The notes below the pieces were generated by a model. That model did not search any database and was not told the DNA's origin. It saw only the letters and a program-made list of their open reading frames with translations. A stretch of DNA of 64,000 bases from Bdellovibrio sp. ArHS (lineage in GTDB: Bacteria > Bdellovibrionota > Bdellovibrionia > Bdellovibrionales > Bdellovibrionaceae), in NCBI RefSeq assembly GCF_000786105.1, contig NZ_JTEV01000010.1:62001-126000 (forward strand), given 5' to 3'. Within the stretch, counting starts at the first letter, position 1. Every line of letters begins with the position of its first letter. Shown in pieces: positions 22,871 through 43,956 of this stretch. The position numbers were made by a program, and so were the translations under genes.

Positions 22871-23911
22871 ATGTATACTGGTTTTTTGCAGAATGTTTGG
22901 TACGTGGGGTTACCTAGCAGTGAGTTGGCTGTGGGGAAGCACCAGGCACGTAAAATTATGAACGAACCCATCGTCTTTTTCCGGGATTCAAAGGGCAAAG
23001 TATCGGCCGTGCGAGATATCTGTCCTCATCGAGGCATCCCTCTTAGTTTCGGACGAGTGGTTGAAGATACCATCGAGTGTCCTTATCACGGTTGGAAATT
23101 TGACGGCTCAGGGATGTGCACGGAAATTCCTTCTTTGTGCCCTGGTCAGGATTTGAACCCGAATAAAATCAAAGTGCGTTCTTACCCCGTGCATGAGGCT
23201 CAAGGGCTGATCTGGATTTTCATTGGCGACAAAGACTATGACATGACAAAAGCTCCCGAAGTTCCGGTCATGAAAGCTTTTGGCAACGATGTGAAGCCGA
23301 AGCTGACTTATGTCGTGAACTTTCCTTGTCACGTCGACCACGCGGTCATTGGGTTGATGGACCCGGCTCACGGCCCTTACGTGCACAAAAGCTGGTTTTG
23401 GCGTTCGGAAAAGACCATGCTTGAAAAGCGCAAAAAATTTGCTCCGGTGAAGTATGGTTTTCAAATGGTTCGTCATCAACCTTCGAAAAACTCCAAAGCT
23501 TATAAACTTTTAGGAGGAGCTCCGACCACCGAGATCACTTTCACTCTGCCTTGCGTGCGTGTGGAGCACATTGAAGTCGGACCTCGTAATTTTTATTCCT
23601 ATACGGCTTTGACCCCAGTGGATGAGAAAAATACTCGCGTCACGCAGTTGGCCTATTGGGATATGCCTTGGTTGTCGCTTTTGAAACCGGCCATTCATCA
23701 GTTTTCAAAAACCTTTCTGGGGCAAGACATGGATGCGGTGACCAAGCAGCAAGAGGGTTTGAAATACGATCCCAGCTTGATGCTCATCAAGGACGCCGAC
23801 ACTCAGGCGAAATGGTATTACGCTTTGAAGACGGAATATCATGATCATTTGGAACAAAAACGGGACTTCACTCATCCCGTGAAAGAAACCGAACTTCGCT
23901 GGAGAAGCTAA
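22871..23911 (+). CDS. Rieske [2Fe-2S] ring-hydroxylating-type oxygenase
   Basis: 346 aa. The Rieske cluster ligands are in CPHRGIPLSFG and CPYHGWKFDG (near residues 52-85). The C-terminal domain has the mononuclear iron region HVDHAVIGLMDPAHGPYVH, comparable with the D-x2-H-x4-H type motif of oxygenase alpha subunits of the pheophorbide-a-oxygenase/vanillate-demethylase group. AAGGA precedes the ATG. There is no membrane segment and no adjacent reductase gene, so the electron donor is unknown. It lies between folD and a phytase-like secreted protein, with a 1-nt overlap (TAATG) to the latter. Substrate unknown. Confidence 0.9.
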   Translation: MYTGFLQNVWYVGLPSSELAVGKHQARKIMNEPIVFFRDSKGKVSAVRDICPHRGIPLSFGRVVEDTIECPYHGWKFDGSGMCTEIPSLCPGQDLNPNKIKVRSYPVHEAQGLIWIFIGDKDYDMTKAPEVPVMKAFGNDVKPKLTYVVNFPCHVDHAVIGLMDPAHGPYVHKSWFWRSEKTMLEKRKKFAPVKYGFQMVRHQPSKNSKAYKLLGGAPTTEITFTLPCVRVEHIEVGPRNFYSYTALTPVDEKNTRVTQLAYWDMPWLSLLKPAIHQFSKTFLGQDMDAVTKQQEGLKYDPSLMLIKDADTQAKWYYALKTEYHDHLEQKRDFTHPVKETELRWRS

Positions 23912-25011
23912 TGGTCAGAGCCTGCGGGATTTTCCTAAGTTTATTTTTAGGATTTCAGGCGCAGGCTTTACGTTTGCAATATGTTGGCGAGACATCCCTA
24001 AAATCAGGAACTCAGTTTCAAAAGACGACTCTTGGCGGTTTTTCCGGGATCGCATGGGCAAATAATATCCTTTTTGCACTTTCTGATGATCGAGGTCGTT
24101 TCGGCGAGCCTCGTTTTTATGAGTTCGATTTATTTGTGAATAAAAAAACAGTGTCCCTGAAGCCGAAGGCCGTGCACTTTTTAAAAGGAATTCCCAAAGA
24201 AGACGACAAAGAGATCTCGCTCGATGCGGAGGGCCTTGTTCGACTTACCGACGGCGAATTCATTGTATCTTCCGAGGGCAATAATAATACAAAGCCTCGG
24301 CAAAGACCGCGACTTTTTCGAATTTCTAGGGAAGGCGTTTGGAAAAGCGACATCGTCGTTCCGGATAAATATCTGCCAGAGCCCCTGGGGCAACAGAAAA
24401 AGGGAATTCAGAACAATATGGCCTTTGAAGGTCTGACCTCTTTTGCCGAAGGTAAGTACCTTTTTGTCGCGAACGAAGGTCCTCTTTTGCAGGACAGTCC
24501 CTCAAATGATGCCGAGGGCGCTTGGATTCGTATTATTAAATACGAAAGCTCGGAAGGCGGGGGTTATAAAGCGAGGGCCGAGTTTGCCTATCAGGTGGAC
24601 GCTTTAAGCAGCTCAAAAAAGGGCTCGGAAGTTTTTAGAGGAGTTTCTGAGATTTTGGCTCTGTCAGAGACCCAACTACTGGTGTTGGAACGAGGAGTAC
24701 GGGTTTCTTCAAAAGAGCTTTTAGCCAAGTCCGTCCGACTTTATCTTGCGGATGTATCTAAAGCCACGGATGTTGCAAAGCTCTTTAAGCTAAGTGATGG
24801 AAAATACACGGGAGCGACCAAAACCCTGCTGCTTGATTTTGAAACGGACCTCACAAAAGAAAGAACCGACAAGAGTGTAGAAAATTTCGAAGCTTTGGCC
24901 TGGGGACCGAAATTAGCAGACGGAAGGCGCAGTCTTCTGGTAATGGTAGACAATAATTTTTCAAAGAAAGAAGTGACTGAACTTCTGGTCTTTGCCGTTG
25001 AAGGTGAGTAG
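23911..25011 (+). CDS. Secreted phytase-like (esterase-like) beta-propeller protein
   Basis: 366 aa with a signal peptide (MVRACGIFLSLFLGFQAQA). The mature part matches the 'esterase-like activity of phytase' pattern: GGFSGIAWANNILFALSDDRG near residues 42-63, SLDAEGLVRLTDGEFIVSSEGN, AFEGLTSF and ENFEALAWGPKL near the end, with repeated strands as in a beta-propeller. Members are periplasmic or secreted and may act on phosphate esters, but activity is rarely shown. The start overlaps the Rieske gene stop by one base; the next gene starts 3 nt downstream. Confidence 0.85.
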   Translation: MVRACGIFLSLFLGFQAQALRLQYVGETSLKSGTQFQKTTLGGFSGIAWANNILFALSDDRGRFGEPRFYEFDLFVNKKTVSLKPKAVHFLKGIPKEDDKEISLDAEGLVRLTDGEFIVSSEGNNNTKPRQRPRLFRISREGVWKSDIVVPDKYLPEPLGQQKKGIQNNMAFEGLTSFAEGKYLFVANEGPLLQDSPSNDAEGAWIRIIKYESSEGGGYKARAEFAYQVDALSSSKKGSEVFRGVSEILALSETQLLVLERGVRVSSKELLAKSVRLYLADVSKATDVAKLFKLSDGKYTGATKTLLLDFETDLTKERTDKSVENFEALAWGPKLADGRRSLLVMVDNNFSKKEVTELLVFAVEGE

Positions 25012-29914: not shown

Positions 29915-30466
29915 ATGCGTTTACAAAGACCCCTTCGTTTTATAATGGCCATAGTCTTATTGATAACCTGTTCTGGTGCCCATGCTGACGATATGGGTCT
30001 GCTGAGTGACATCAAACCACCACAACAAACCTCGGAATATATCTTTCGCTCTTCTCCGAAGGAATCTTTGGTGACGGTACAATTGCTGGGGGCGGTCAAT
30101 AAGCCCGGGATCTATTATGTGCCAGCTGGCACGGATCTTTTGAAGTTGATCACCTTGGCCGGTGGAACCACGAATGGCGGAGACCTTTCAGAGGTGATTG
30201 TTCGAAAAATGGAGCCTAAAACTTGGGCAGAAATTAAATCAAAGGCTGTTAATGAGTACCAAGGCGCTTTTGAAGTAGACGCAGAAAAATTGATTAAATA
30301 CGGGGGGACTCGTTCCTTGCGTTTGCACCAAGATGACTTTGTCTATGTTCCACCACGCACTCCTTGGATCAGCAACGAGACCGCCCGGGGTATTACGCTT
30401 GTTTCAGTGATCTTGGGGATCGCTTTGACCGCGGTTCTTATTGATAAAAATACTGGAAATAACTAA
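29915..30466 (+). CDS. SLBB-domain polysaccharide export-type protein
   Basis: 183 aa with a signal peptide (RFIMAIVLLITCSGAHA) and an SLBB domain (TVQLLGAVNKPGIYYVPAGTDLLKLITLAGGTTNGG, residues ~52-90), then a second beta segment (DDFVYVPPRTPW) and a C-terminal membrane helix (GITLVSVILGIALTAVLID). Such proteins are periplasmic parts of polysaccharide exporters; the large poly-export domain of Wza is absent. GGAGG lies 5 nt before the ATG. It heads a same-strand run with the polymerase, Wzz and deacetylase genes. Confidence 0.8.
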   Translation: MRLQRPLRFIMAIVLLITCSGAHADDMGLLSDIKPPQQTSEYIFRSSPKESLVTVQLLGAVNKPGIYYVPAGTDLLKLITLAGGTTNGGDLSEVIVRKMEPKTWAEIKSKAVNEYQGAFEVDAEKLIKYGGTRSLRLHQDDFVYVPPRTPWISNETARGITLVSVILGIALTAVLIDKNTGNN

Positions 30467-30468
30467 GA

Positions 30469-31770
30469 ATGATTCAAGCACGCGATGGCCGTATTCTATT
30501 TCTTATAAAAGCACTCGCGGCTTTGATCTTTATTTCCAAAATTTCTTTGGGGTCTCTTCTTCCTGTACCGCAAAGATTCTCTTTTCTTATTTTTCAGCAG
30601 GGCCTGCATCCTTTTGTAAATGTCTTTCTTTGTTTTCTTTTTGGTTTGCCTTTGATCTTCTTGTGGCTGCGGGTGCGAAACCGCAATCATTTGAGCGGAT
30701 TCTATAAACTGTTCGTTTACGTTCTGATGTTAACACTCACGGTGCAGACCCTGTTACAAGCGCACTATGTGAATACGGAAGAATCCACCCTTATGCAAAT
30801 AGGTGCTTTGGGCGTTTCTTTGTTCATGGTCGTTCTGTATGGTTTGGTCATCCCCAGTCTTTGGAGTGTTGACGAATTTATGCGCTTTATTCAGCGTTGG
30901 TCCGGATTTTTGGTTTTGATTTCACTGGTTTTGTTCGTCGTGGCAAGTGGACAGGTTTTTAAGGGGGGGCGTTTTATTGGCGTCTTTAAACACATTCCCC
31001 ACATGGTCACGTGTGCGACTGTTGCGTTCGTTTTCTCGCTGGGAACTCTTCTTCAAGGCACCAAAGCGAAACATAAAATTTTAGATGCAGTGATCTTAGG
31101 GGCCAGTTTTATTGCTATTATTCTGACGGGAACACGGTCATCTGCCGGTGCGGCAGTGTTGGCTTTTGTGGTGACAATGATTCTACATAAAACTGCAACC
31201 AATCAGGGGCGTATTTTTAAATTCGCCTTCACTTCCCTGGCGATTACTTTCTCTTTGTTCTTCGGTGCCAATGTCTATGACTTCGCTCGGGGTATTGCCA
31301 CAGGGCAAGCGGCATTAGGGGGGCGCGAGGCGCAAGATGGTATAGCGTCGCGATGGGAAGAAGTCGAAAGGGGATTCCAAATTTTTCAGCAGGAACCCTT
31401 GTTGGGACATGGTTTGCTTTCCAAATTCGCGGCGGGAAACGATGTGGATGTTTCGAATTACAATGCCATGAAAGACCCTCACAATATCTTTGTTTCCGCG
31501 GGGGTTGTCGGTGGCTGGCCTTTGATTATTCTGAGCGTGGTGGCTCTGGTGTTTATGCTGCTGGGATCTTTTAAAGCCCTGACTTCCCATAGTGTCTCTA
31601 AAAGACAGGTCGCCATTTATCTGCTTTCACATATTCCTATTCTGGTGATTTACCACATTCACTTATCCATCGGCGGGATGGCAGATCGTCTTTATTGGAT
31701 GGTATTTGGTTTTGTGGCGGCCTCGACCATTCGTTCGGAGTCATCCGCACAGTCTTCAGAATCGTTGTGA
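30469..31770 (+). CDS. O-antigen ligase/polymerase family (Wzy-like) membrane protein
   Basis: 433 aa with about ten or more hydrophobic segments. The Wzy_C-type region is visible as AIILTGTRSSAGAAVLAFVV and the large loop containing GGREAQDGIASRWEEVERGF and LLGHGLLSKFA, DPHNIFVSAGVVGGWPLIIL, typical of O-antigen ligase/polymerase proteins. It starts 2 nt after the SLBB gene. It probably polymerises or ligates an undecaprenyl-linked glycan at the outer face of the inner membrane. The glycan is unknown; no glycosyltransferase is adjacent. Confidence 0.88.
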   Translation: MIQARDGRILFLIKALAALIFISKISLGSLLPVPQRFSFLIFQQGLHPFVNVFLCFLFGLPLIFLWLRVRNRNHLSGFYKLFVYVLMLTLTVQTLLQAHYVNTEESTLMQIGALGVSLFMVVLYGLVIPSLWSVDEFMRFIQRWSGFLVLISLVLFVVASGQVFKGGRFIGVFKHIPHMVTCATVAFVFSLGTLLQGTKAKHKILDAVILGASFIAIILTGTRSSAGAAVLAFVVTMILHKTATNQGRIFKFAFTSLAITFSLFFGANVYDFARGIATGQAALGGREAQDGIASRWEEVERGFQIFQQEPLLGHGLLSKFAAGNDVDVSNYNAMKDPHNIFVSAGVVGGWPLIILSVVALVFMLLGSFKALTSHSVSKRQVAIYLLSHIPILVIYHIHLSIGGMADRLYWMVFGFVAASTIRSESSAQSSESL

Positions 31771-32025
31771 TTCGTCAAAAAATGCAGTCGGGGCACCGTG
31801 AAAAAGCAACTTCAGAGTGCTCTGAAGAGTTCGACAAGCCTTTGTCCTTTAAAAATACTGGTTGGGAGCTAAAGTGATTTTGGCATCTTGATGTTGTCAA
31901 TTGAACGTACACCCCTGAACAAATTTCAAAGTCTTAATCCTCATTGCACATTAAACACAGGCCAAGGCATTAAATCGGTGGCACAACCAATGCTTGCGGG
32001 GATATGTCACAGAAGGTGGGGATAT

Positions 32026-33447
32026 ATGAGTGATCAGCATATAGAACCTGAATTAACAGTGGGCGAAATTATTAAACTTTATTTGTCCCATTGGCGCATG
32101 TTTGCTTTGTTTACCGCAGGTCTATTTGCGGTCGCGGTTCTTGTTTACGTTGTTAAGATTCCTTTTGTCGCGTCTTCGACAATTGTTATTAACGATTCAC
32201 AGAACTCTTCATTGCAGGCATTCTCAAACCAGTTTTTTGGTTTGTCGAAGTCGGTTCAGGAATCAAAAAAAGGCAGTAGTTTGCTTTCTAAGCATATCGA
32301 GTATCTTAAGACTCGTGAGTTCTACGAGACTCTGCTACAAAGAATTCAAGTCCGTGGCAACAGCCCTCTTATCACTATGGAAGAGCGCAACGGCTACGAT
32401 ATTTTGAAGACCAACTATTTGGGTGACATAGATAAACCCGAAAAGCGGGTTCAAATTCTGCAAAAGCTGGATGCTTGGACAAAAATCAATATCGATTCGG
32501 ACTTTGAAATTCGCGTGTCCGCTGTGACGCCGATTAAAGCCATGTCATTGTTTCTATCTAATACGGCCTCAGAACTGGCCGCAGAAACTTTGAAGAAACG
32601 CGAGATGAATGAAATCGCGCGTGTCGAAGACTTTATGGCGAAGCAAAAAGTCGATGCCGATCAAAAGCTGGTTCAGCTTAGTAAACAACTGGCCGAGATG
32701 CAGAACAAAGAAGGTGCCCTTCTGCCGTTAGCTTCAAAAGATAAGATGGGGGACTACATCTCAGATCTTCTGGTGCGATCTAACGAAATCAAGCTGAAGA
32801 TGGCCGAGAACAACAAGATGATCGAGTACCTGCAAAAAGGTCGCTCTAATCAGCGTGAGTCCGCGCTGTACGGTGTGGGTGGCAAGATCGAGGCGCTTCG
32901 TATTGAAAATAGCATCCTCAAAACCAAATTAGGTCAGGTGCAGTCTTCGATTGATCGCTTGAAGAAGGACGCGAAAGAGCTGCCGTTTGCGGCGCAAATG
33001 GTTGATGATTTGAAAAAGAAATCTGAGTTGGAATTCGCGCGCTATAAGGAATTGACGACCAATCTTGCGAAGCTGGAAGCACAAAAGCTTTCCATCGATA
33101 CCCGTTTTGAAGTTTTAGAGCGGGCTCGTTGGGAAAACACTTTGCCACAGATCGGGTTGTTAAGCTTAGGGTTGTTGTCATTATTGCTAAGTCAGTTCGC
33201 CGGTTCTTTGGTTATTTATTTTAAATACCTTTGGAATCCGAATGTGGTTACGGCTCAGGCGTCGCGCAATTTGGTTATTTTTGATAACCACTCGGCCGAT
33301 CCACGCGTGATCATTGAAAACTCAAAAATTAAATTCAGTCTGAAGAAACCTGAACCCAAAGTGGAGGAAGGTGAAAAGACTGAGGATCCACAAAATATAT
33401 CTTGGAATGTTGTGAATGTGGGACAGGGAACGGATGTCTCTCAATAG
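32026..33447 (+). CDS. Wzz-type polysaccharide chain-length/co-polymerase protein
   Basis: 473 aa from the ATG at 32026 (MSDQHIEPELTVGEIIKLYL), preceded by AAGGTGGGG; an upstream in-frame ATG at 31888 lacks support. Two membrane helices flank the body (MFALFTAGLFAVAVLVYVVKI near residues 25-45 and LLSLGLLSLLLSQFAGSLVIYF near 388-410), with a long periplasmic coiled coil between them, the typical Wzz layout. The cytoplasmic C-tail (~60 aa) lacks a tyrosine-kinase P-loop. It probably sets the length of the polymer made by the neighbouring Wzy-like protein. Confidence 0.85.
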   Translation: MSDQHIEPELTVGEIIKLYLSHWRMFALFTAGLFAVAVLVYVVKIPFVASSTIVINDSQNSSLQAFSNQFFGLSKSVQESKKGSSLLSKHIEYLKTREFYETLLQRIQVRGNSPLITMEERNGYDILKTNYLGDIDKPEKRVQILQKLDAWTKINIDSDFEIRVSAVTPIKAMSLFLSNTASELAAETLKKREMNEIARVEDFMAKQKVDADQKLVQLSKQLAEMQNKEGALLPLASKDKMGDYISDLLVRSNEIKLKMAENNKMIEYLQKGRSNQRESALYGVGGKIEALRIENSILKTKLGQVQSSIDRLKKDAKELPFAAQMVDDLKKKSELEFARYKELTTNLAKLEAQKLSIDTRFEVLERARWENTLPQIGLLSLGLLSLLLSQFAGSLVIYFKYLWNPNVVTAQASRNLVIFDNHSADPRVIIENSKIKFSLKKPEPKVEEGEKTEDPQNISWNVVNVGQGTDVSQ

Positions 33448-33456
33448 GATGTGAAA

Positions 33457-34590
33457 ATGAAGAATTGGATTGTAAAAGCTCTGGCAATTGGTTTGGCGGG
33501 GACTCTTGTAGGTTGCGGAAATAGTATCAGCAAAAAAGTGCAACAAGCGGTCACGGACAATCAGCAAGCTCAGTCTAACCTGGAGTGGGAACAATCCGAG
33601 GCACATCCCGAAGCTTTGTTCGAGGAGTGGCGCCAGTCCGAAACAAAGGGCGCTCCTCGCGAAAATCTTCCTCACGAGATTTGTGAAAGTCTTGCGCAAC
33701 TGGATGCACTGTCTTTAACTCTTTTTGAAAACGAAATTCGTGATGCACAGAACGAGGCTTTGCTTGCGGGCTGCAAAGCGGAACTCCTGTCCAGTATTGA
33801 TTCTTACTTTTCTTCGGAAAGACAGAAGTTGTCTGTGAGTGTGAACGCCTTGGTTCCAGCGCGAACGACGAACAGCTTTAAGTTCCCAACAAATGTGCAG
33901 AAGCGCGATACCTCAAATGGTTACTATGCGACGTACGGGGATACGGCTCGCAAAGAAGTGATTCTGACTTTTGATGATGGGCCGAACAATATCTATACTC
34001 CCTCTATTTTGCGATCTTTAAATGAGGTGAATGCCAAAGCGATTTTCTTTGCATTGGGAAAGAACTCGCGTTTGAATCCCGAGACCTTGAAGCTAGTGGC
34101 TTCGCAAGGACATGCGATCGGTTCTCATACTGAAACTCATAGCTGTATCGGAAATAGTTCCGCTTGTCGAAAAATGCACGGACGTAACTTCACTTTTGAC
34201 GAAGCCGTAGAAGAAATCCGCAAAGGACATCAGGCTATTTATGACGTCTTGGGTTGGATTGATCCTTTCTTCCGATTTCCCTATGCTGAAGGCTCTCCGC
34301 AATTAAGAAATTTCTTAAAGACGAGCTCGACGGGCGATTTTTCCTGGGTGATTGACAGTGAAGACTGGAAGGCTCAGTCGAATGACAACGTTTTGCGCAA
34401 CACCTTGAATCAGGTGGAGGCTAAAGGTCGTGGAATCATTCTTTTCCACGATATCCAAAGGAAAACGGCGGAAATTATGCCGACATTCCTTCGCGAGCTT
34501 TACACGCGCGGTTACAGTGTTGTATTACTTCAATCTGCTGATCCGTCAGCGAGATACAACAGTAAACTTGTGAAGAAAAGAGTTCCGTAG
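33457..34590 (+). CDS. Polysaccharide deacetylase (NodB) lipoprotein
   Basis: 377 aa from ATG 33457, chosen because AGGA lies 7 nt upstream; GTG 33451 is an alternative. A lipobox LVGC puts it on the envelope. The NodB domain (from about residue 165) shows TFDDGPNN (catalytic Asp and metal Asp), SHTETHS (metal His), RFPYAEGS and ILFHDI, all needed for activity. Substrates of the family are N- or O-acetyl sugars in peptidoglycan or exopolysaccharide. Bdellovibrio deacetylases are known to modify prey peptidoglycan, but position beside wzy/wzz suggests an exopolysaccharide substrate here. Confidence 0.9.
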   Translation: MKNWIVKALAIGLAGTLVGCGNSISKKVQQAVTDNQQAQSNLEWEQSEAHPEALFEEWRQSETKGAPRENLPHEICESLAQLDALSLTLFENEIRDAQNEALLAGCKAELLSSIDSYFSSERQKLSVSVNALVPARTTNSFKFPTNVQKRDTSNGYYATYGDTARKEVILTFDDGPNNIYTPSILRSLNEVNAKAIFFALGKNSRLNPETLKLVASQGHAIGSHTETHSCIGNSSACRKMHGRNFTFDEAVEEIRKGHQAIYDVLGWIDPFFRFPYAEGSPQLRNFLKTSSTGDFSWVIDSEDWKAQSNDNVLRNTLNQVEAKGRGIILFHDIQRKTAEIMPTFLRELYTRGYSVVLLQSADPSARYNSKLVKKRVP

Positions 34591-36977: not shown

Positions 36978-37042
36978 AATTTGTTCTATGACGCAATACT
37001 TATTTCCGCTCGGTAAGCCACACCTGCTGAATGTCTACAAGT

Positions 37043-37067
37043 GTGCAAGACAGCTCTGTCTCTGCAC
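37043..37067. promoter_or_regulatory. Dyad-symmetric site upstream of the DUF4956-VTC operon
   Basis: GTGCA-a-GACAG-ct-CTGTC-tc-TGCAC is a nearly perfect palindrome centred about 80 bp before the ATG at 37135. The two-base centre makes an operator for a dimeric regulator at least as likely as a hairpin. No T-run follows. Confidence 0.45.
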
Positions 37068-37134
37068 AAACCACGTCTAATTTTATTGTCCTGGTTGGGG
37101 ATTTGGATGAAGCCTGTTTTCCTAGGGGCTTTAT

Positions 37135-37818
37135 ATGTTGGACTTTTCGATTCTTAATTCTTCATTTTCAAACCCGACTTGGATCTCGATAGTTTATGCG
37201 TTTCTGTTAAGTTTTGTTTTAGGAACGGTCTTAGCAGTGATCTACGTGAAAACCTTCCGAGGGCTCTCGTATTCGTTAAATTTTCTGCATGGCCTGGTTC
37301 TTCTGCCCATCGTAATTGCGATCGCTATGCAGGCTATTGGCGATAATGTGGCCCGAGGGATCGGGATGATCGGTGCTTTGTCGTTATTGCGCTTTCGCAC
37401 GAATGTTAAAGACCCGCGCGACATGTTTTTTATCTTTGCATCCTTGGCAGTGGGGTTGGCTTCGGGCGTTCATGCCTATGGAATCGCCATTCTAGGAACG
37501 GTTTGCTTTGTTGTGGCTCTATTGATTCTACAAGGTTCCTCTTTTGCTGCGGGCCCTCAATTTGACGGTCTTCTGCGCTTCAATTTGGCCCGAAATCCCG
37601 AGCAGCAAAGACAGATAGAGAACGTCTTGGAAGGCAAATGCCGTCATTTTGCTTTGGCGACTATTCGCGAAATGGGGCAGGGGGAACGCTTGGATTTTTC
37701 CTATCAGATCCGTCTTAAACCCCAGATGACGTCTGCGCAGCTCATTGAGGATCTTGGCAAGGTCGATTCTGTTCGAGGTCTGAATTTTATGAATCAAGAA
37801 TCAGTGATCGAGGTTTAA
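37135..37818 (+). CDS. DUF4956 family membrane protein
   Basis: 227 aa with about four membrane helices (residues ~17-40, 48-68, 100-125 region) including the family's conserved IARGIGMIGALSLLRFRTNVKDPRDMFFIFASLAVGLASG-type segment (only its key parts are cited: GALSLLRFRT and DPRDMFFIF), then a cytoplasmic domain of ~80 aa. DUF4956 proteins are often encoded beside VTC-domain proteins, as here. AGGGG precedes the ATG. The next gene starts 2 nt after its stop. Function is unknown; it may be the membrane subunit working with the VTC protein. Confidence 0.87.
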   Translation: MLDFSILNSSFSNPTWISIVYAFLLSFVLGTVLAVIYVKTFRGLSYSLNFLHGLVLLPIVIAIAMQAIGDNVARGIGMIGALSLLRFRTNVKDPRDMFFIFASLAVGLASGVHAYGIAILGTVCFVVALLILQGSSFAAGPQFDGLLRFNLARNPEQQRQIENVLEGKCRHFALATIREMGQGERLDFSYQIRLKPQMTSAQLIEDLGKVDSVRGLNFMNQESVIEV

Positions 37819-37820
37819 GG

Positions 37821-39602
37821 ATGATCAAGGCGACCCGCTCATTTTTTAGAACCTTTCTGGAGGACTTTGTCGGTTCCGACAATAAATTTCTGGCAGCGGT
37901 CTGGTGTGTTGCTGTGGTTGTCATTTTGGGCTTCGGATTCTTCTTAAATTCAGAAACGGTCAGTATTCTAGGAATAGCAGAGTCGCGGGAATTTCAGGTG
38001 AACTTCGATACCGCCGTCGAAATAAAACAAATCCACGTTATACCCGGGCAGGTCGTAAAAAAAGGCGATCTTCTTTTAGAATTGGGGCAGAAAGAACTGG
38101 ACAGCCAGTTGCGCATTCTAAGATCTCGATATGATCGATTGTTGGCCGAGTTGAAGCTGCGGCGGGAGATCGCTTATTTGACAAAAGACAATTCAAAAAT
38201 GCCCGAGGGGGCAGACCCTTTGCTGGTCGATCTGAATGACACCAAAAAAGAAATGAGTTTGCTTGAAAATCGTCTGCGGAACCTTTTTGTATTTGCCGAA
38301 TTGGATGGTGCCGTTGGTGCGGTAAACTTTAAAAACGGTGAAAAGGCGCCCGCTTTTGCTCCGCTCGTGACTTTGGTTCCCGTCAATCCCAGCTATATCA
38401 ATGGCTATGTAAATGAAAATCTGCATGCGACAGTGCATGTCGGTCAGCTTGTGGATGTCATTTCGGCCAGTGGGCAGAAAATTCAAGGACGGGTGAGCAG
38501 TGTCGGCACTCGTATCGTGCAGATTCCGGATCGGGTCTTACGAATTCAGAGCCTGCCAGCGTGGGGACGGGAAGTTGTTGTGAAGATTCCCAGTGCGAAT
38601 GGATTTTTGGTGGGTGAAAAAGTAAGCGTGAAAAAATCTTGGGGCATCACTCTTTTTAGCACTGCGCAGGCGGAACAAGCGGGTGCTGCGGAAGACAGCT
38701 TTCAAAGTCTTGAAGAAATTAATTTTCCCCGTCGTATCACCGAACTATTTCAGCCGGAGATCTCGGGAATTGTCTACATTCCCGATATACATCAATTTGC
38801 GATGATTTCGGATGACTATCCCGAGGATCGACCCGCTATTCTTCTGATGAACACCAAAGGTGAAGTGGCCGAACAAATGCTGCCTATAGAGGGGTTGGAA
38901 AGAATGGAGGATATTGAATCCATTTCTTCAGACGGGGATTTTCTTTATCTTTTAAGTTCCTTGTCAGCGACCAAGAAAGAAAACCTCAAAGACGCCAGAC
39001 AGCTTTTTGTAAAGGTTCGCCGCAATGGAATTCGTTTTACTTTGCAAAAACAGGTCGACTTAAGAAAAGCTCTTCTCGGGGCCTTGTCTCGGTCCCAAGA
39101 TAAGGTTTTGCAGGCGGTGTTCAAACAAAGTCAGGGGACCCGACTTCATGATTTGGAAGTCGAAGGTCACTTCGTCAAAAATGGCGATCTTTACATCGCT
39201 TTGAAAAGACCGCTGGTTTTTGCCGGTGAAGGACTCATTCTAAAATTGGCGAACGCAGAAAAAATTTTCGCAACAGGGGTCCTGGAAAGTCGCAATGTCA
39301 GTGTGGCTTTGCGTTTCCCGCTAAGCCTGCCTGGAAAGCCGACCCGTCTTTATCTTTCGGACATGATTTCTTTGGAAGATCACATCTATGTCTCAACCTC
39401 TTGTGTGTCCGAAAAATGCAGTGCGGTTTGGCGCATCAATCCCGAGACCGGCGCAAGCGAACTGATCCAGGAGTTTAATCTTAAAAAGTTGGAAGGAATT
39501 GCTATTGGTCCTTCGGGTCATCAGATTTTCGGGGTTTTTGATAATAAAAAAGGAGGCAAATTTATTACCATTCCCTTTGCCGCGACACAGGGGCAGAAAT
39601 GA
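37821..39602 (+). CDS. HlyD-type membrane fusion protein fused to a C-terminal beta-propeller
   Basis: 593 aa. Residues ~20-42 form a membrane helix; residues ~55-285 look like a periplasmic adaptor (membrane fusion protein) with a biotinyl-lipoyl-like half (IKQIHVIPGQVVKKGDLLLEL), a short helical hairpin and a returning half (ELDGAVGAVNFKNGEKAPAFAPLVTLVP). The last ~290 residues resemble a propeller of the DUF3616 or phytase-like type (SGIVYIPDIHQFAMISDD; DIESISSDGDFLYLLSSLS; KLEGIAIGPSG). That fusion is not usual for HlyD proteins. It lies 2 nt after DUF4956 and overlaps the TolC-like gene by 4 nt, so the three are probably made together. Confidence 0.8.
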   Translation: MIKATRSFFRTFLEDFVGSDNKFLAAVWCVAVVVILGFGFFLNSETVSILGIAESREFQVNFDTAVEIKQIHVIPGQVVKKGDLLLELGQKELDSQLRILRSRYDRLLAELKLRREIAYLTKDNSKMPEGADPLLVDLNDTKKEMSLLENRLRNLFVFAELDGAVGAVNFKNGEKAPAFAPLVTLVPVNPSYINGYVNENLHATVHVGQLVDVISASGQKIQGRVSSVGTRIVQIPDRVLRIQSLPAWGREVVVKIPSANGFLVGEKVSVKKSWGITLFSTAQAEQAGAAEDSFQSLEEINFPRRITELFQPEISGIVYIPDIHQFAMISDDYPEDRPAILLMNTKGEVAEQMLPIEGLERMEDIESISSDGDFLYLLSSLSATKKENLKDARQLFVKVRRNGIRFTLQKQVDLRKALLGALSRSQDKVLQAVFKQSQGTRLHDLEVEGHFVKNGDLYIALKRPLVFAGEGLILKLANAEKIFATGVLESRNVSVALRFPLSLPGKPTRLYLSDMISLEDHIYVSTSCVSEKCSAVWRINPETGASELIQEFNLKKLEGIAIGPSGHQIFGVFDNKKGGKFITIPFAATQGQK

Positions 39603-40753
39603 TGTCTTTGATTCCTTGGTGGTTTCTTGTGTCATCTGTGTTCGCAGTGACCCCCGAGCAGGTTCTTAAAACAGCCTGGAATGATAAAACTTACCTTTCT
39701 TTTGAGGAAATTCAGGCGACGGATTCAAAGAATCCTTTGCGGAGTGTGGAAGGATTTGTTTCCTCTGAAGAAGAGGAAAGGGATACTGAATCCAAAATCG
39801 GTTTGAAGTTTCAGTTCAAATCATGGCCGGAATGGAAAACAGGACGTCCTAAAGGCACTGAACAAAAACTTCTTCGCAGTGCTTCGTTAGGGTGGGCTTT
39901 AAAGAATCGCTACAACACCCTTCTTATTTACGAATTAAATCGCCAAAAAACAGCGAAACTGAGCCAAATGATCCAGCTTTCAGAAAGACATGTTCAGGCT
40001 CAAACTTTATCTTTACGGGCGGGGCGATCGACGTCCAAATCCTATATTTCGGCCAGAGCGGAGCTTGTGAAGTTGAAGAGGTCCCTGTCTGTGTTACAGC
40101 AGGAAAGACAAATGCTTGAAACCCGAATTCAAGTATGGGTGCCCTCTTGGCAAGAGGGGTCTTTAGAGACCCTAAATCTTGTTAGCGTAGAGGATGTGGA
40201 ACAAAACTTAAAAGCATCCGTCGTTAAAGGAGATTCTTTGACGAAGAAGATTGCCAATGAAGAAATTGAACAGCTCACTCAGGAACTGACGATCGTTAAA
40301 GGTCGCGAAAATCAGTGGTTTAAAGGGGTTGATGTTAGCCAGAACCGAAAAAAAAATGATATCTCTTATGAGATTGAGGTGACCTTACAACTGCCTTTTC
40401 TTTTTTCGGATGACTTATCCAAACAAAAACAAAATGAACTTATTCTAAAACGCGCTTTGAAGCAGCGAGATGTCGAAGAAACGGGTAATCGACTGGAAAC
40501 TCTGCGCGTGCAAATTTTGAATCTGATTGAAATTTACAAAGACACCCAAAAGTTAAGCCGGATTCAAGGCGGCGGCTTAGACCCCTTGGCCAATATCGAG
40601 CGCAAACTAGCAGAGGAACAAGAGGCTCTGGATCTTTTGAATCAACAGCAAGAGATCCTCAGCCTTTATCTGGAATATCTGCTGGAGTCAGAAATTTTGA
40701 ACAACAGGCCGGAAAAAAATTATTTGGATAAATCTTTAAAGGCGCTGTTATGA
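39599..40753 (+). CDS. TolC-like outer-membrane efflux-type protein
   Basis: 384 aa, shorter than TolC (~450-490). A signal peptide (MMSLIPWWFLVSSVFA) precedes two long helical regions (about residues 95-160 and 270-345) with heptads rich in Leu, Gln, Lys and Arg, plus short strand-like segments (KIGLKFQFKSW; YEIEVTLQLPFLF), the layout of TolC-type outer-membrane factors. It overlaps the HlyD-type gene and the VTC gene by 4 nt each (ATGA). Together with the adaptor it could form a channel from the inner membrane through the outer membrane. Identification is by layout and context; sequence conservation is low. Confidence 0.7.
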   Translation: MMSLIPWWFLVSSVFAVTPEQVLKTAWNDKTYLSFEEIQATDSKNPLRSVEGFVSSEEEERDTESKIGLKFQFKSWPEWKTGRPKGTEQKLLRSASLGWALKNRYNTLLIYELNRQKTAKLSQMIQLSERHVQAQTLSLRAGRSTSKSYISARAELVKLKRSLSVLQQERQMLETRIQVWVPSWQEGSLETLNLVSVEDVEQNLKASVVKGDSLTKKIANEEIEQLTQELTIVKGRENQWFKGVDVSQNRKKNDISYEIEVTLQLPFLFSDDLSKQKQNELILKRALKQRDVEETGNRLETLRVQILNLIEIYKDTQKLSRIQGGGLDPLANIERKLAEEQEALDLLNQQQEILSLYLEYLLESEILNNRPEKNYLDKSLKALL

Positions 40754-41535
40754 GCATTCAGGTGTCGCCCCTAAATTTGGAAAGATACGAGTTAAAATAT
40801 TTGATTTCCCCGGATCTTGTTGAGCCCATTTCCCGGTTCGTAGAAGCGTACTGTTTTATGGACCATTTCTCTGAGGTCGCAGAGGATAAGTACTACACGA
40901 TTAACAGTCTCTATTTGGACTCGCCCTCGTACTATATTTTGCGATTTAAAGAGCGTGCGAATGCCTTTAGTTTTAATATGCGCATTCGTTCCTACGGAGC
41001 GGGAACGACTCCGCCTTATTTCTTTGAAGTGAAATACAAGGTGCGGGAATTCGTAAAAAAGAAAAGAGCGAAAGTGTCAGTCGCTCGATGGCAGGATATT
41101 TTAAATTTTGACTTGATTCCTGAAGGTCTGGATGAAGGATCTCGCAGCAATCTGGAAGATTTCCTGCGACAAAAAATCACATACAATGTCGCCCCGGTTA
41201 TTCTGACGCAGTATCGGCGCAAGGCCTATATTTCCCATGTCGATGATTATGCGCGGGTGACGTTTGACAGAGATTTAAGGTTTCATGAAGTGGATGCCTG
41301 GACAGTCACCCCTAATGAAAAGCTTTTGAGTCACTATGATCACCCGGACTCATTTGAAGAACCGGGAAAGTGCGTGGTGCTAGAACTAAAATGCGAAAAA
41401 AAAATTCCGCTATGGATGATTGATCTGATTCGTCGCTTCGGGCTGGTCAGTGGCTCTTTTTCAAAGTTTGGTAATTCCATGGCGACGCATTTGGGAATTC
41501 CTGACGTGACGTCGCCAGGAATTCTATATCGGTAG
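40750..41535 (+). CDS. VTC-domain protein (polyphosphate polymerase-type)
   Basis: 261 aa that are essentially one VTC (triphosphate tunnel) domain. Conserved residues are visible in order: RYELKYLI (Lys16), FKERANAFSFNMRIRSYG (Arg/Lys row), FFEVKYKVREFVKKKR, VTFDRDLRF, VVLELKCEKKIPLWM and a final SGSFSKFGNSMATH. In yeast Vtc4 the same fold makes polyphosphate from ATP; bacterial VTC proteins are proposed to do likewise, but activity here is not shown. It overlaps the TolC-like gene by 4 nt and ends one base before the convergent kinase-like gene. No membrane helix, so it acts in the cytoplasm, probably on the DUF4956 partner. Confidence 0.87.
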   Translation: MSIQVSPLNLERYELKYLISPDLVEPISRFVEAYCFMDHFSEVAEDKYYTINSLYLDSPSYYILRFKERANAFSFNMRIRSYGAGTTPPYFFEVKYKVREFVKKKRAKVSVARWQDILNFDLIPEGLDEGSRSNLEDFLRQKITYNVAPVILTQYRRKAYISHVDDYARVTFDRDLRFHEVDAWTVTPNEKLLSHYDHPDSFEEPGKCVVLELKCEKKIPLWMIDLIRRFGLVSGSFSKFGNSMATHLGIPDVTSPGILYR

Positions 41536-42891
41536 TTACAAATCACAGCGGTAAGCGGGTTTGCTGGCGCCTGGGATATAAGTTTCCAGATCAACATCGA
41601 AGTGCAGTTCTCCCGCCTGACATTTTGACAGAAGAATTTGTTTTGCTTTCGTGGCATTGCCGACCAGAACGGCATAATCATTGGAAGTGAATAACATTTC
41701 TCGCGTGAAGTAGTCCTTGGTATAGGCGTCCTTCAAAGTTCGTTCAAAAGCTAAAAATCGGCGATAGGTGCTGTAACTGATATGTCGGACTTGTTCTAAC
41801 GCGTTCACTCTGCGCATCATGTTGGTTTTTATGATGGCACAGTCATTATCTTTAAGAACCATTTCTTTGATTAAGGCGGCCTGCTTGCCCGCCATCGCAT
41901 CTTTTTCTGCTTGAGGTACTTGCAGCTGGTTACCCACCCATTTGGCCTCTGACTTCATTCGCTCAATTTTCATTGAGGAGGGATTTGCGGCATACCAATA
42001 GAACTTGTAGTGGATATTCCCGATTCGGTCCTGTTGATTCATCAGCGTATCCAGAAGGACTAGATCCGACACATCTTTCATTTGCGTGACCGTCTGTGCG
42101 ACCGAGGCGAAGTCTTTCGTGCCGACGATTTGTTCCACACTTTGTGAACTGGCGACTTTTTGAAAAGGTGGCTGCTGTAAGAATCGCTGATAGCGCGTTT
42201 CGTAGGGGCCATTGCCACTGACTTCCATGTATTGTTCTTCATTTTTTATGTTGTCTGATAAGGCTCCATAAAGTTGACTCAGGCTATTGTCAACGACAGT
42301 GGGGTAGTTGCCGGGAGTCTTGTGAATGCGCCCCATCGCAGCCCAGGAAGACTTAATTTCATAAGGACTGTTTTGTAGATTAGCAATAGCTTTATCAGTT
42401 AGGCGGGCATGAATATCTCGATCCATAGAGCGAATCACCGCGACTGGAACACGTCCCACGTTGCCCAGAATTCTTGAGATTGGATAGTAGGCCAAAATTC
42501 CTGGCGTGTAAGAGCAGGTGACCGACTGTTTAAACTTCGCTTCTGTCTTAACGCCCATTTTTTTCACGTCACAGTTTGAAGCATCAATTGCGTCTTTCGA
42601 ATAGGAAGCGTTGGGCTTTAATATCAAAATAGCTGGATTTGTTGAGGTGTATTTAGGGCAGATTCCCATGTTGGAATGAAAGTCGTAGCTGCAGAGATCA
42701 TTTTCTTTTTCTACATCATCGGCACGATACGAAGCCCCGGGCCATTTTTTCGGAATCACGCAGACCTCGGCCAACCCTTGCGGAGAGCGATATTCGACTC
42801 GACGCTCACCTTGCAGCTCGGAAAGATTCAGAGCCATTGCGGAGGAAGCGAAGGTACTTATGCAAAAAAAGGAGATCGACTTAGTCATCAT
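41536..42891 (-). CDS. Secreted protein with Fam20/HipA-like kinase motifs
   Basis: 451 aa with a signal peptide (TKSISFFCISTFASSAMA). Kinase-like signatures: Lys92 in AILILKPNAS (possible ATP Lys), YPISRILGNVGRVPVAVIRSMDRD (like the RLLG-x-RVP region of Fam20/HipA-type kinases), DRIGN (288-292) in LLDTLMNQQDRIGN (catalytic-loop type), and KDND (347-350) in MVLKDNDCAI (metal-binding type). Several cysteines could form disulfides. It lies convergently right beside the VTC gene; VTC and DUF4956 genes are often near CotH-type kinases in other bacteria. Substrate unknown. Family call is moderate. Confidence 0.6.
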   Translation of the reverse strand: MMTKSISFFCISTFASSAMALNLSELQGERRVEYRSPQGLAEVCVIPKKWPGASYRADDVEKENDLCSYDFHSNMGICPKYTSTNPAILILKPNASYSKDAIDASNCDVKKMGVKTEAKFKQSVTCSYTPGILAYYPISRILGNVGRVPVAVIRSMDRDIHARLTDKAIANLQNSPYEIKSSWAAMGRIHKTPGNYPTVVDNSLSQLYGALSDNIKNEEQYMEVSGNGPYETRYQRFLQQPPFQKVASSQSVEQIVGTKDFASVAQTVTQMKDVSDLVLLDTLMNQQDRIGNIHYKFYWYAANPSSMKIERMKSEAKWVGNQLQVPQAEKDAMAGKQAALIKEMVLKDNDCAIIKTNMMRRVNALEQVRHISYSTYRRFLAFERTLKDAYTKDYFTREMLFTSNDYAVLVGNATKAKQILLSKCQAGELHFDVDLETYIPGASKPAYRCDL

Positions 42892-43092
42892 AATAAACTC
42901 GTTTCAGACAGGTTGAGCTCCATTTATAAAAAGGAACGACAGTATCCGCACCTTACAAAAAGGAGAATATTCGTATTAGCGACTCAGGAAAGCCTTACTT
43001 AAGGAGAGAGAAAAAAATAACCGCCTCATGTTTGAAAGAAAATGGGTCCAGTCTGATTGTGTGTTTCAACAAAACTTCCGCATGATCACGTA

Positions 43093-43956
43093 ATGAAAAA
43101 AGGATATTTCAAAACCGCAATTATTTTATTCGCTGCCGTTACTCAACTTACGGGATGTATGGAAGCTGCGCTCATGAAAGGCGTGACAGACGCCGCTTCG
43201 GGAAAAACAGGTGGGCAAAAGGAACCCGCCGTAACTAGCCCCGATGATTCCAATTCTTCCAATGACTCTGCGGCCTTGCCGGACTCGGGTGTCAGTGCCG
43301 GTGCTTTTAGCATCGAAAAAGAGGCGCAAAAGTACAAAGACCGTTACGAACTTACCGACACCTTTGCAAAGCTCACCGACAACCGAGGCGATGGAGTCGA
43401 AGAACTCTGGGGAACTCGGAATTTTCGCGTGGTTCTTCATGGTGTAATGTACCGAGGTGGAGCTAATAACAAGTACCTGAATCCATCGCGCAACAATGTG
43501 AATCCTTTGCCCACGGTGGGTTTGAACAACTTATGTAAAGAGGATTTCGGAGCGTCGGTGTATCTTTATTCGGAAAACTATTCGACGGCACCGAAGAGCG
43601 TGACTTGTCAAAACACCTCTCATCAGACTCATACGCTGCAGTATAAACAATATGCCGCTGCCGGTGAAAATGAAGCCATTTTGCAAATGGTCTATAACCG
43701 CATCAAAGGTAAGCTGAACGGGCCTATTTACGCTCACTGTTGGAATGGGTGGCATTCGTCAGGCTTGATCGCGGGAATGGCGCTAAAACAATTTTGTGGC
43801 TGGAGCAATGATAAGGTTGACGCCTATTGGGTGAAGAACACCGACGGAAACTCTTCGGGTTTCACGACTATTCGCAACCGTCTGAAGGCATTTAAGCCCT
43901 ATGTGAAGTTTTCGATTACGGCGGCGGAAAGAGCCGCCATCTGTCCGGCGAATTAA
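43093..43956 (+). CDS. Lipoprotein with dual-specificity-phosphatase-like fold, signature Arg replaced by Ser
   Basis: 287 aa from ATG 43093 (an upstream in-frame ATG at 43057 does not fit the signal). Lipobox LTGC puts Cys22 at the mature N-terminus; a Ser/Asn/Asp-rich linker follows. The C-terminal domain (from about residue 100) has FRVVLHGVMYRGGANN and IYAHCWNGWHSSGLIAGMAL, like the HCxxGxxR(S/T) loop of tyrosine/dual-specificity phosphatases: His215, Cys216 and Gly219 are present, but position 222 is Ser, not Arg. So it may bind phosphate poorly or have another role. A terminator follows. Confidence 0.72.
   Translation: MKKGYFKTAIILFAAVTQLTGCMEAALMKGVTDAASGKTGGQKEPAVTSPDDSNSSNDSAALPDSGVSAGAFSIEKEAQKYKDRYELTDTFAKLTDNRGDGVEELWGTRNFRVVLHGVMYRGGANNKYLNPSRNNVNPLPTVGLNNLCKEDFGASVYLYSENYSTAPKSVTCQNTSHQTHTLQYKQYAAAGENEAILQMVYNRIKGKLNGPIYAHCWNGWHSSGLIAGMALKQFCGWSNDKVDAYWVKNTDGNSSGFTTIRNRLKAFKPYVKFSITAAERAAICPAN

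Follow-up and report, generated by a model that had tools for sequence, protein, structure and literature searches.

In yeast, the synthesis of polyphosphate by the VTC complex is coupled to its translocation (PMC9911596). In streptococci, clostridia and bifidobacteria, a trio of genes encoding CotH, a polymerase and a DUF4956 protein accompanies the Pel loci (PMC7112168). Here we describe an operon of a Bdellovibrio-group bacterium with a genome of 3.54 Mb, in which the genes for a VTC-domain protein and a DUF4956 membrane protein occur together with those for an adaptor and an outer-membrane channel protein (Table 1). To our knowledge, VTC and DUF4956 proteins, which are found in many bacterial phyla, have so far remained unexplained. 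HlyD-type adaptors normally join ABC, RND or MFS pumps to TolC. Weighing the evidence presented below, we consider it an even call whether this operon specifies a module of polymerase plus conduit that exports polyphosphate, driven by its synthesis, with a CotH-type enzyme acting outside.

Table 1. Position of the operon, the upstream site and neighboring features in the analyzed stretch of 64,000 nucleotides ("the window").
Feature	Coordinates	Strand	Remarks
Phytase-like propeller protein	23911-25011	+	strong match, PF13449 3.1e-64; ~12 kb from operon
Polysaccharide cluster	29915-34590	+	SLBB export domain, Wzy_C ligase, Wzz-like, polysaccharide deacetylase
Upstream dyad	37042-37068		TGTGCA-AGACAG-ct-CTGTCT-c-TGCACA
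DUF4956 protein gene	37135-37818	+	227 aa; Pfam PF16316
HlyD/MacA-type adaptor gene	37821-39602	+	593 aa; HlyD_3 + models
TolC-fold outer-membrane channel protein gene	39599-40753	+	384 aa; AF2 model
VTC-domain protein gene	40750-41535	+	261 aa; Pfam PF09359
Secreted 451-aa protein gene	41536-42891	-	convergent with operon; candidate extracytoplasmic partner
Secreted lipoprotein-like protein	43057-43956	+	weakly Siw14-type phosphatase-like (PF03162, E 0.0018)

Organization and Conservation of the Operon

A sequence-only reading of the window had grouped four open reading frames into an operon (37135-41535, + strand), and all four were indeed recovered at their positions, separated from one another by +2, -4, and -4 nt. 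That reading had also drawn attention to a dyad-symmetric site upstream. The site exists, but it is not conserved, since its outer arms are gone in the nearest relatives and the entire site is gone in other relatives; it adds nothing to the argument and was rejected as an operator. A phage origin of the operon, for which a single distant VTC match was obtained, was also rejected.

Among 23 other Bdellovibrio genomes, the adaptor and the DUF4956 protein are encoded in 15 and the VTC protein in 14 of these 15, the contig of the fifteenth ending inside the tolC-like gene so that VTC is not visible. All of the operon genes are absent from the remaining eight. When mapped on a PPK1 tree of 15 genomes of the genus, operon presence needs at least three changes, and repeated gain or loss must, therefore, have affected the set as a whole. 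Furthermore, at least two chromosomal surroundings of the operon within the genus are unrelated to each other, and it is thus not merely carried along by its neighborhood. The polysaccharide cluster of the window (Table 1) accompanies the operon in some members of the genus but not in others, and a homologue of its deacetylase also adjoins the operon in another locus (L163).

Phylum-wide, the adaptor profile was matched in 43 of 369 genomes, although some of these matches are stand-alone propellers. The order DUF4956-adaptor-TolC-VTC is found in every complete locus of the phylum (28), with gaps that are short or overlapping, some of the overlaps stemming from mechanical start choice. Outside the phylum the same set recurs in other arrangements, i.e., adaptor-TolC-VTC-DUF4956, adaptor-TolC-VTC-CotH-DUF4956, CotH-DUF4956-adaptor-TolC-VTC, and VTC-DUF4956-adaptor-TolC, which excludes that the combination is peculiar to this one genome, an outcome that the earlier reading had allowed for. 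The retention of the set despite its changed order is strong evidence for one function of the set as a whole, and its constant order, tight spacing and presence in many genera are far beyond chance. No ABC, RND or MFS pump is encoded in the operon and none was recurrent among 300 neighboring ORFs at 45 loci from 30 lineages, which leaves the DUF4956 and VTC proteins as the obvious inner-membrane engine. Apart from the adaptor and the channel, DUF4956 is the sole membrane protein encoded here, and most simply it would form the inner-membrane part, with VTC as the engine.

The VTC and DUF4956 Proteins

The VTC protein matches Pfam family PF09359 far above the curated cut-off (4.4e-46, 157.8 bits vs. 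23) and contains neither an SPX nor a transmembrane domain; judging from its sequence, it is predicted to be a cytosolic polyphosphate polymerase. Residues K16, R78, R80, K95, and K108 match K200, R264, R266, K281, and K294 of yeast Vtc4, in an alignment with a constant offset that sets R78/R80 on R264/R266 and confirms this numbering. In addition, E212 was assigned to Vtc4 E426 by its motif (LELKC) and K239 to K458 by a weak alignment. R78, R80, E212, and K239 are invariant in the 13 aligned sequences. In yeast, the substitutions R264A/R266A/E426N inactivate the VTC complex (PMC9911596), and K458 of Vtc4 has been described as catalytic (PMC4641920). Inactivity of the VTC domain, which had been envisaged in the sequence-only reading, is made unlikely by this retention of the key residues of Vtc4.

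The triphosphate tunnel metalloenzyme (TTM) fold also includes hydrolases, in which four glutamates bind a second metal (E2, E4, E90, and E171 of AtTTM3; PMC4641920). The corresponding positions of this acidic patch are occupied by R12, E14, K108, and K214 in the VTC protein, i.e., by three basic residues and one acidic residue, where the matching of AtTTM3 E90 to K108 is our own reading. We read the domain as that of a polymerase and not of a hydrolase, although a glutamate such as E14 would be usual in the latter. A separate PPK1 gene is present outside the operon in this genome, as well as in 15 of the 16 tested genomes of the genus, and bulk polyphosphate would, therefore, be independent of the operon.

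The DUF4956 protein was identified by its match to PF16316 (5.9e-15, 55.8 bits vs. a curated cut-off of 30.6), while its similarity to MgtC in Pfam falls below the cut-off. Its hydropathy profile shows approximately four hydrophobic segments followed by a C-terminal domain of ~95 aa. The protein is 61-97% identical to its relatives and possesses a conserved basic loop (LRFRTNVKDPRD). Since a search for a sequence relative with a solved structure yielded none, its function as a channel is one that we infer.

The Adaptor and the Outer-Membrane Channel

The adaptor exceeds the Pfam cut-off for HlyD_3 (3.7e-06) and comprises an N-terminal transmembrane helix (~19-43), a barrel-sandwich region with a short hairpin (~46-270) and a beta-propeller (~293-590). 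Its model matches MacA (1e-07), with low confidence in the barrel-sandwich region; the HlyD profile, the N-terminal helix and the MacA-like fold together characterize it as an HlyD/MacA adaptor. The best structural match of the propeller is YjiK (Z 20.2 over 223 residues), and it resembles, among others, apyrase (Z 18.2); the extra propeller that had been noticed from the sequence is thus real. A phytase-like identity of this propeller was rejected because all of the matches are weak and sub-threshold. The propeller is missing from some members (L162-L164, L242), which makes it an accessory part. Stand-alone homologues of the propeller occur at several loci (L165 7437-8402, L166 3126-4043, L167 5169-6107, L168 7646-8524, and L049 8125-9090), and one Bdellovibrio genome (G014) has such a homologue alongside the full operon. 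The window itself also encodes a separate, phytase-like propeller protein (Table 1).

The TolC-like protein has an N-terminus resembling a signal peptide and has itself no match in Pfam. Its alignment gave weak OEP matches in three members, and distant homologues exceed the OEP cut-off (2.1e-26, 2.1e-05, and 1.1e-06). The AF2 model (mean pLDDT 79.8; Foldseek 9.4e-11) aligns with TolC (7ng9) over 357 residues with a Z of 21.3 and an rmsd of 4.9, far above the values for unrelated structures, and it displays the long helices and the pair of beta-hairpins that each protomer of a TolC/OEP protein is expected to have. The assignment made from the sequence is, therefore, borne out by a clear TolC fold.

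A Recurrent Fifth Partner

What the earlier reader missed is a recurrent fifth partner, a CotH kinase or a putative counterpart of it. The commonest neighbors of the set in the 30 lineages are a secreted family of ~800-1300 aa (in seven) and CotH (in four). In another phylum, three clusters include CotH, either between the other genes or as the terminal one (L240, 1.8e-60; L242, 3e-31; L241, 9.3e-10). CotH is also encoded near the set in L245 (6.8e-10). Other Bdellovibrionota that have no conduit (L105-L108) possess VTC with CotH, mostly together with DUF4956, and CotH, VTC and DUF4956 are all adjacent in L105-L107, L240, and L242. A protein resembling PEP synthase (PPDK_N 1.4e-16) adjoins the module in L245 (6764-9649; scanned as L102 6764-9646), and a relative of it is encoded near the module in L151.

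In Bdellovibrio, no CotH was recognized by Pfam beside the operon. Its place may be taken by a secreted, cysteine-rich protein of 451 aa, encoded directly downstream. All 16 operon-bearing Bdellovibrio genomes contain this family, and the eight that lack the operon are devoid of it, but its gene is mostly adjacent to the operon, so that the shared loss partly reflects linkage and the co-occurrence was not accepted as functional proof; in three genomes (G009, G014, and G015) the gene is located away from the operon. The motifs LD..NQqDRiGN and KDND of the 451-aa protein recall the catalytic and metal-binding loops of kinases, and we offer a kinase function as a suggestion from these short motifs. 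The protein has no match in Pfam or the PDB, and neither a CotH profile match nor detectable homology to CotH was found for it. The gene that follows it in the window (Table 1) is conserved beside the 451-aa gene in approximately 10 loci; in none of the copies does the signature of the encoded protein, HCWNGWHSSG, contain the catalytic arginine.

The large secreted family (~1100 aa) is characterized by the motifs NNDLKExxNNK and HDLGFaFG and, likewise, has no Pfam or PDB match; for this family, too, a kinase function is offered as a suggestion at the level of motifs. It adjoins the operon in L155 (12666-15995), L156 (11946-15275), L157, L158, and L160, often as two divergent copies. Homology of the 451-aa protein, the ~1100-aa family and CotH to one another was rejected, with hhalign probabilities <1%.

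Proposed Function and Alternative Explanations

In the scheme that we infer, which extends to the enzyme activity, the identity of the polymer, its path and direction and the chemistry of the partner, the VTC protein would work in the cytosol, turning ATP into polyphosphate or a closely similar polymer of that type. The growing chain would cross the inner membrane through the DUF4956 protein, in the way yeast Vtc4 feeds a vacuolar channel. The adaptor would receive it from there and dock on the TolC-like channel, leading to the cell surface or outside. Polymerization may thus provide the driving force that otherwise comes from the proton motive force or from the ATPase of a pump. Outside the cytoplasm, a CotH-type kinase, a role that the 451-aa neighbor might fill in Bdellovibrio, may use, anchor or modify the product. 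The most specific form of this scheme, i.e., a polymerization-driven trans-envelope exporter in which VTC and DUF4956 replace the pump and a surface CotH-type kinase uses or anchors the polyphosphate, is tentative and we hold it with clearly less than even confidence. Counting against export are the VTC-DUF4956-CotH clusters elsewhere, which manage without a conduit. If the scheme is true, a polymerase would serve as the engine of an exporter. With a conduit-bearing set in species already endowed with PPK1, the question in which direction the polymer moves becomes accessible to experiment, and a specific role for polyphosphate outside the cell is suggested.

The same genes may also be read differently. 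VTC and DUF4956 could deliver short polyphosphate as a periplasmic phosphoryl donor for a CotH-type kinase, while the adaptor and TolC-like channel export the modified protein or polysaccharide. The identity of the recurrent partner, CotH or its putative counterpart, fits this, kinases outside the cytoplasm presumably have no obvious source of ATP, and the window contains a polysaccharide cluster upstream of the operon. However, this cluster is unlinked to the operon in approximately half of the loci of the genus, and we know of no CotH enzyme that uses polyphosphate. The association of CotH-polymerase-DUF4956 genes with Pel polysaccharide loci in Gram-positive bacteria (PMC7112168) speaks in its favor. 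On balance, we consider the phosphoryl-donor explanation unlikely, though it is the foremost alternative to synthesis-driven export.

A conventional conduit for efflux or secretion, the pump of which is encoded elsewhere and which VTC and DUF4956 only regulate or energize, would agree with the usual service of HlyD-type adaptors to ABC, MFS, and RND pumps, families that are included among the matches of the adaptor. The adaptor and channel genes, however, remain firmly associated with those for VTC and DUF4956 in different phyla despite their reshuffled order, and no pump gene is recurrent, which renders such a conduit highly improbable. Equally hard to sustain is a VTC domain that acts as a TTM hydrolase or binding domain in a module sensing or degrading polyphosphate or triphosphates, for even if some TTM-fold proteins are hydrolases, one position of the acidic patch is filled by E14 (PMC4641920) and the adaptor propeller resembles apyrase, among others, the other glutamates are replaced by R12, K108, and K214 and K239, the counterpart of Vtc4 K458, is invariant. 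Both of these explanations are less likely than export or phosphoryl donation.

Comparison with Known Systems

No description of the VTC-DUF4956-adaptor-TolC combination was found in the open-access papers searched, although other papers may contain one. Of the known systems, the yeast VTC complex (Vtc1/Vtc3/Vtc4) shares the VTC catalytic residues with the operon, and in both synthesis would be coupled to passage through a membrane, a prediction in our case. Unlike the yeast complex, the operon encodes no SPX and no Vtc1-type transmembrane domain, the membrane protein DUF4956 is separate and shows no recognized link to Vtc1, and there are two membranes to cross. The MacA-like adaptor and the TolC-fold outer-membrane channel are reminiscent of the tripartite MacAB-TolC exporters, but here an ABC, RND or MFS pump gene is lacking, the adaptor carries a beta-propeller and a polymerase stands in the place of the pump. 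The proposed coupling of polymerization and export in an envelope-spanning machine also recalls the synthase-dependent secretion of exopolysaccharides such as Pel, alginate, and cellulose; this is an analogy only, as the enzyme, the polymer and the envelope proteins are all different.

Closest is the Pel-associated CotH-VTC-DUF4956 group of Gram-positive bacteria (PMC7112168), the function of which is likewise unproven. As in that group, VTC and DUF4956 occur together, and several members of the family described here also have CotH, whereas an HlyD adaptor and a TolC channel have not been described for the Gram-positive group. Compared with published descriptions, what is new is that the known CotH-VTC-DUF4956 group has been fitted with a Gram-negative trans-envelope conduit.
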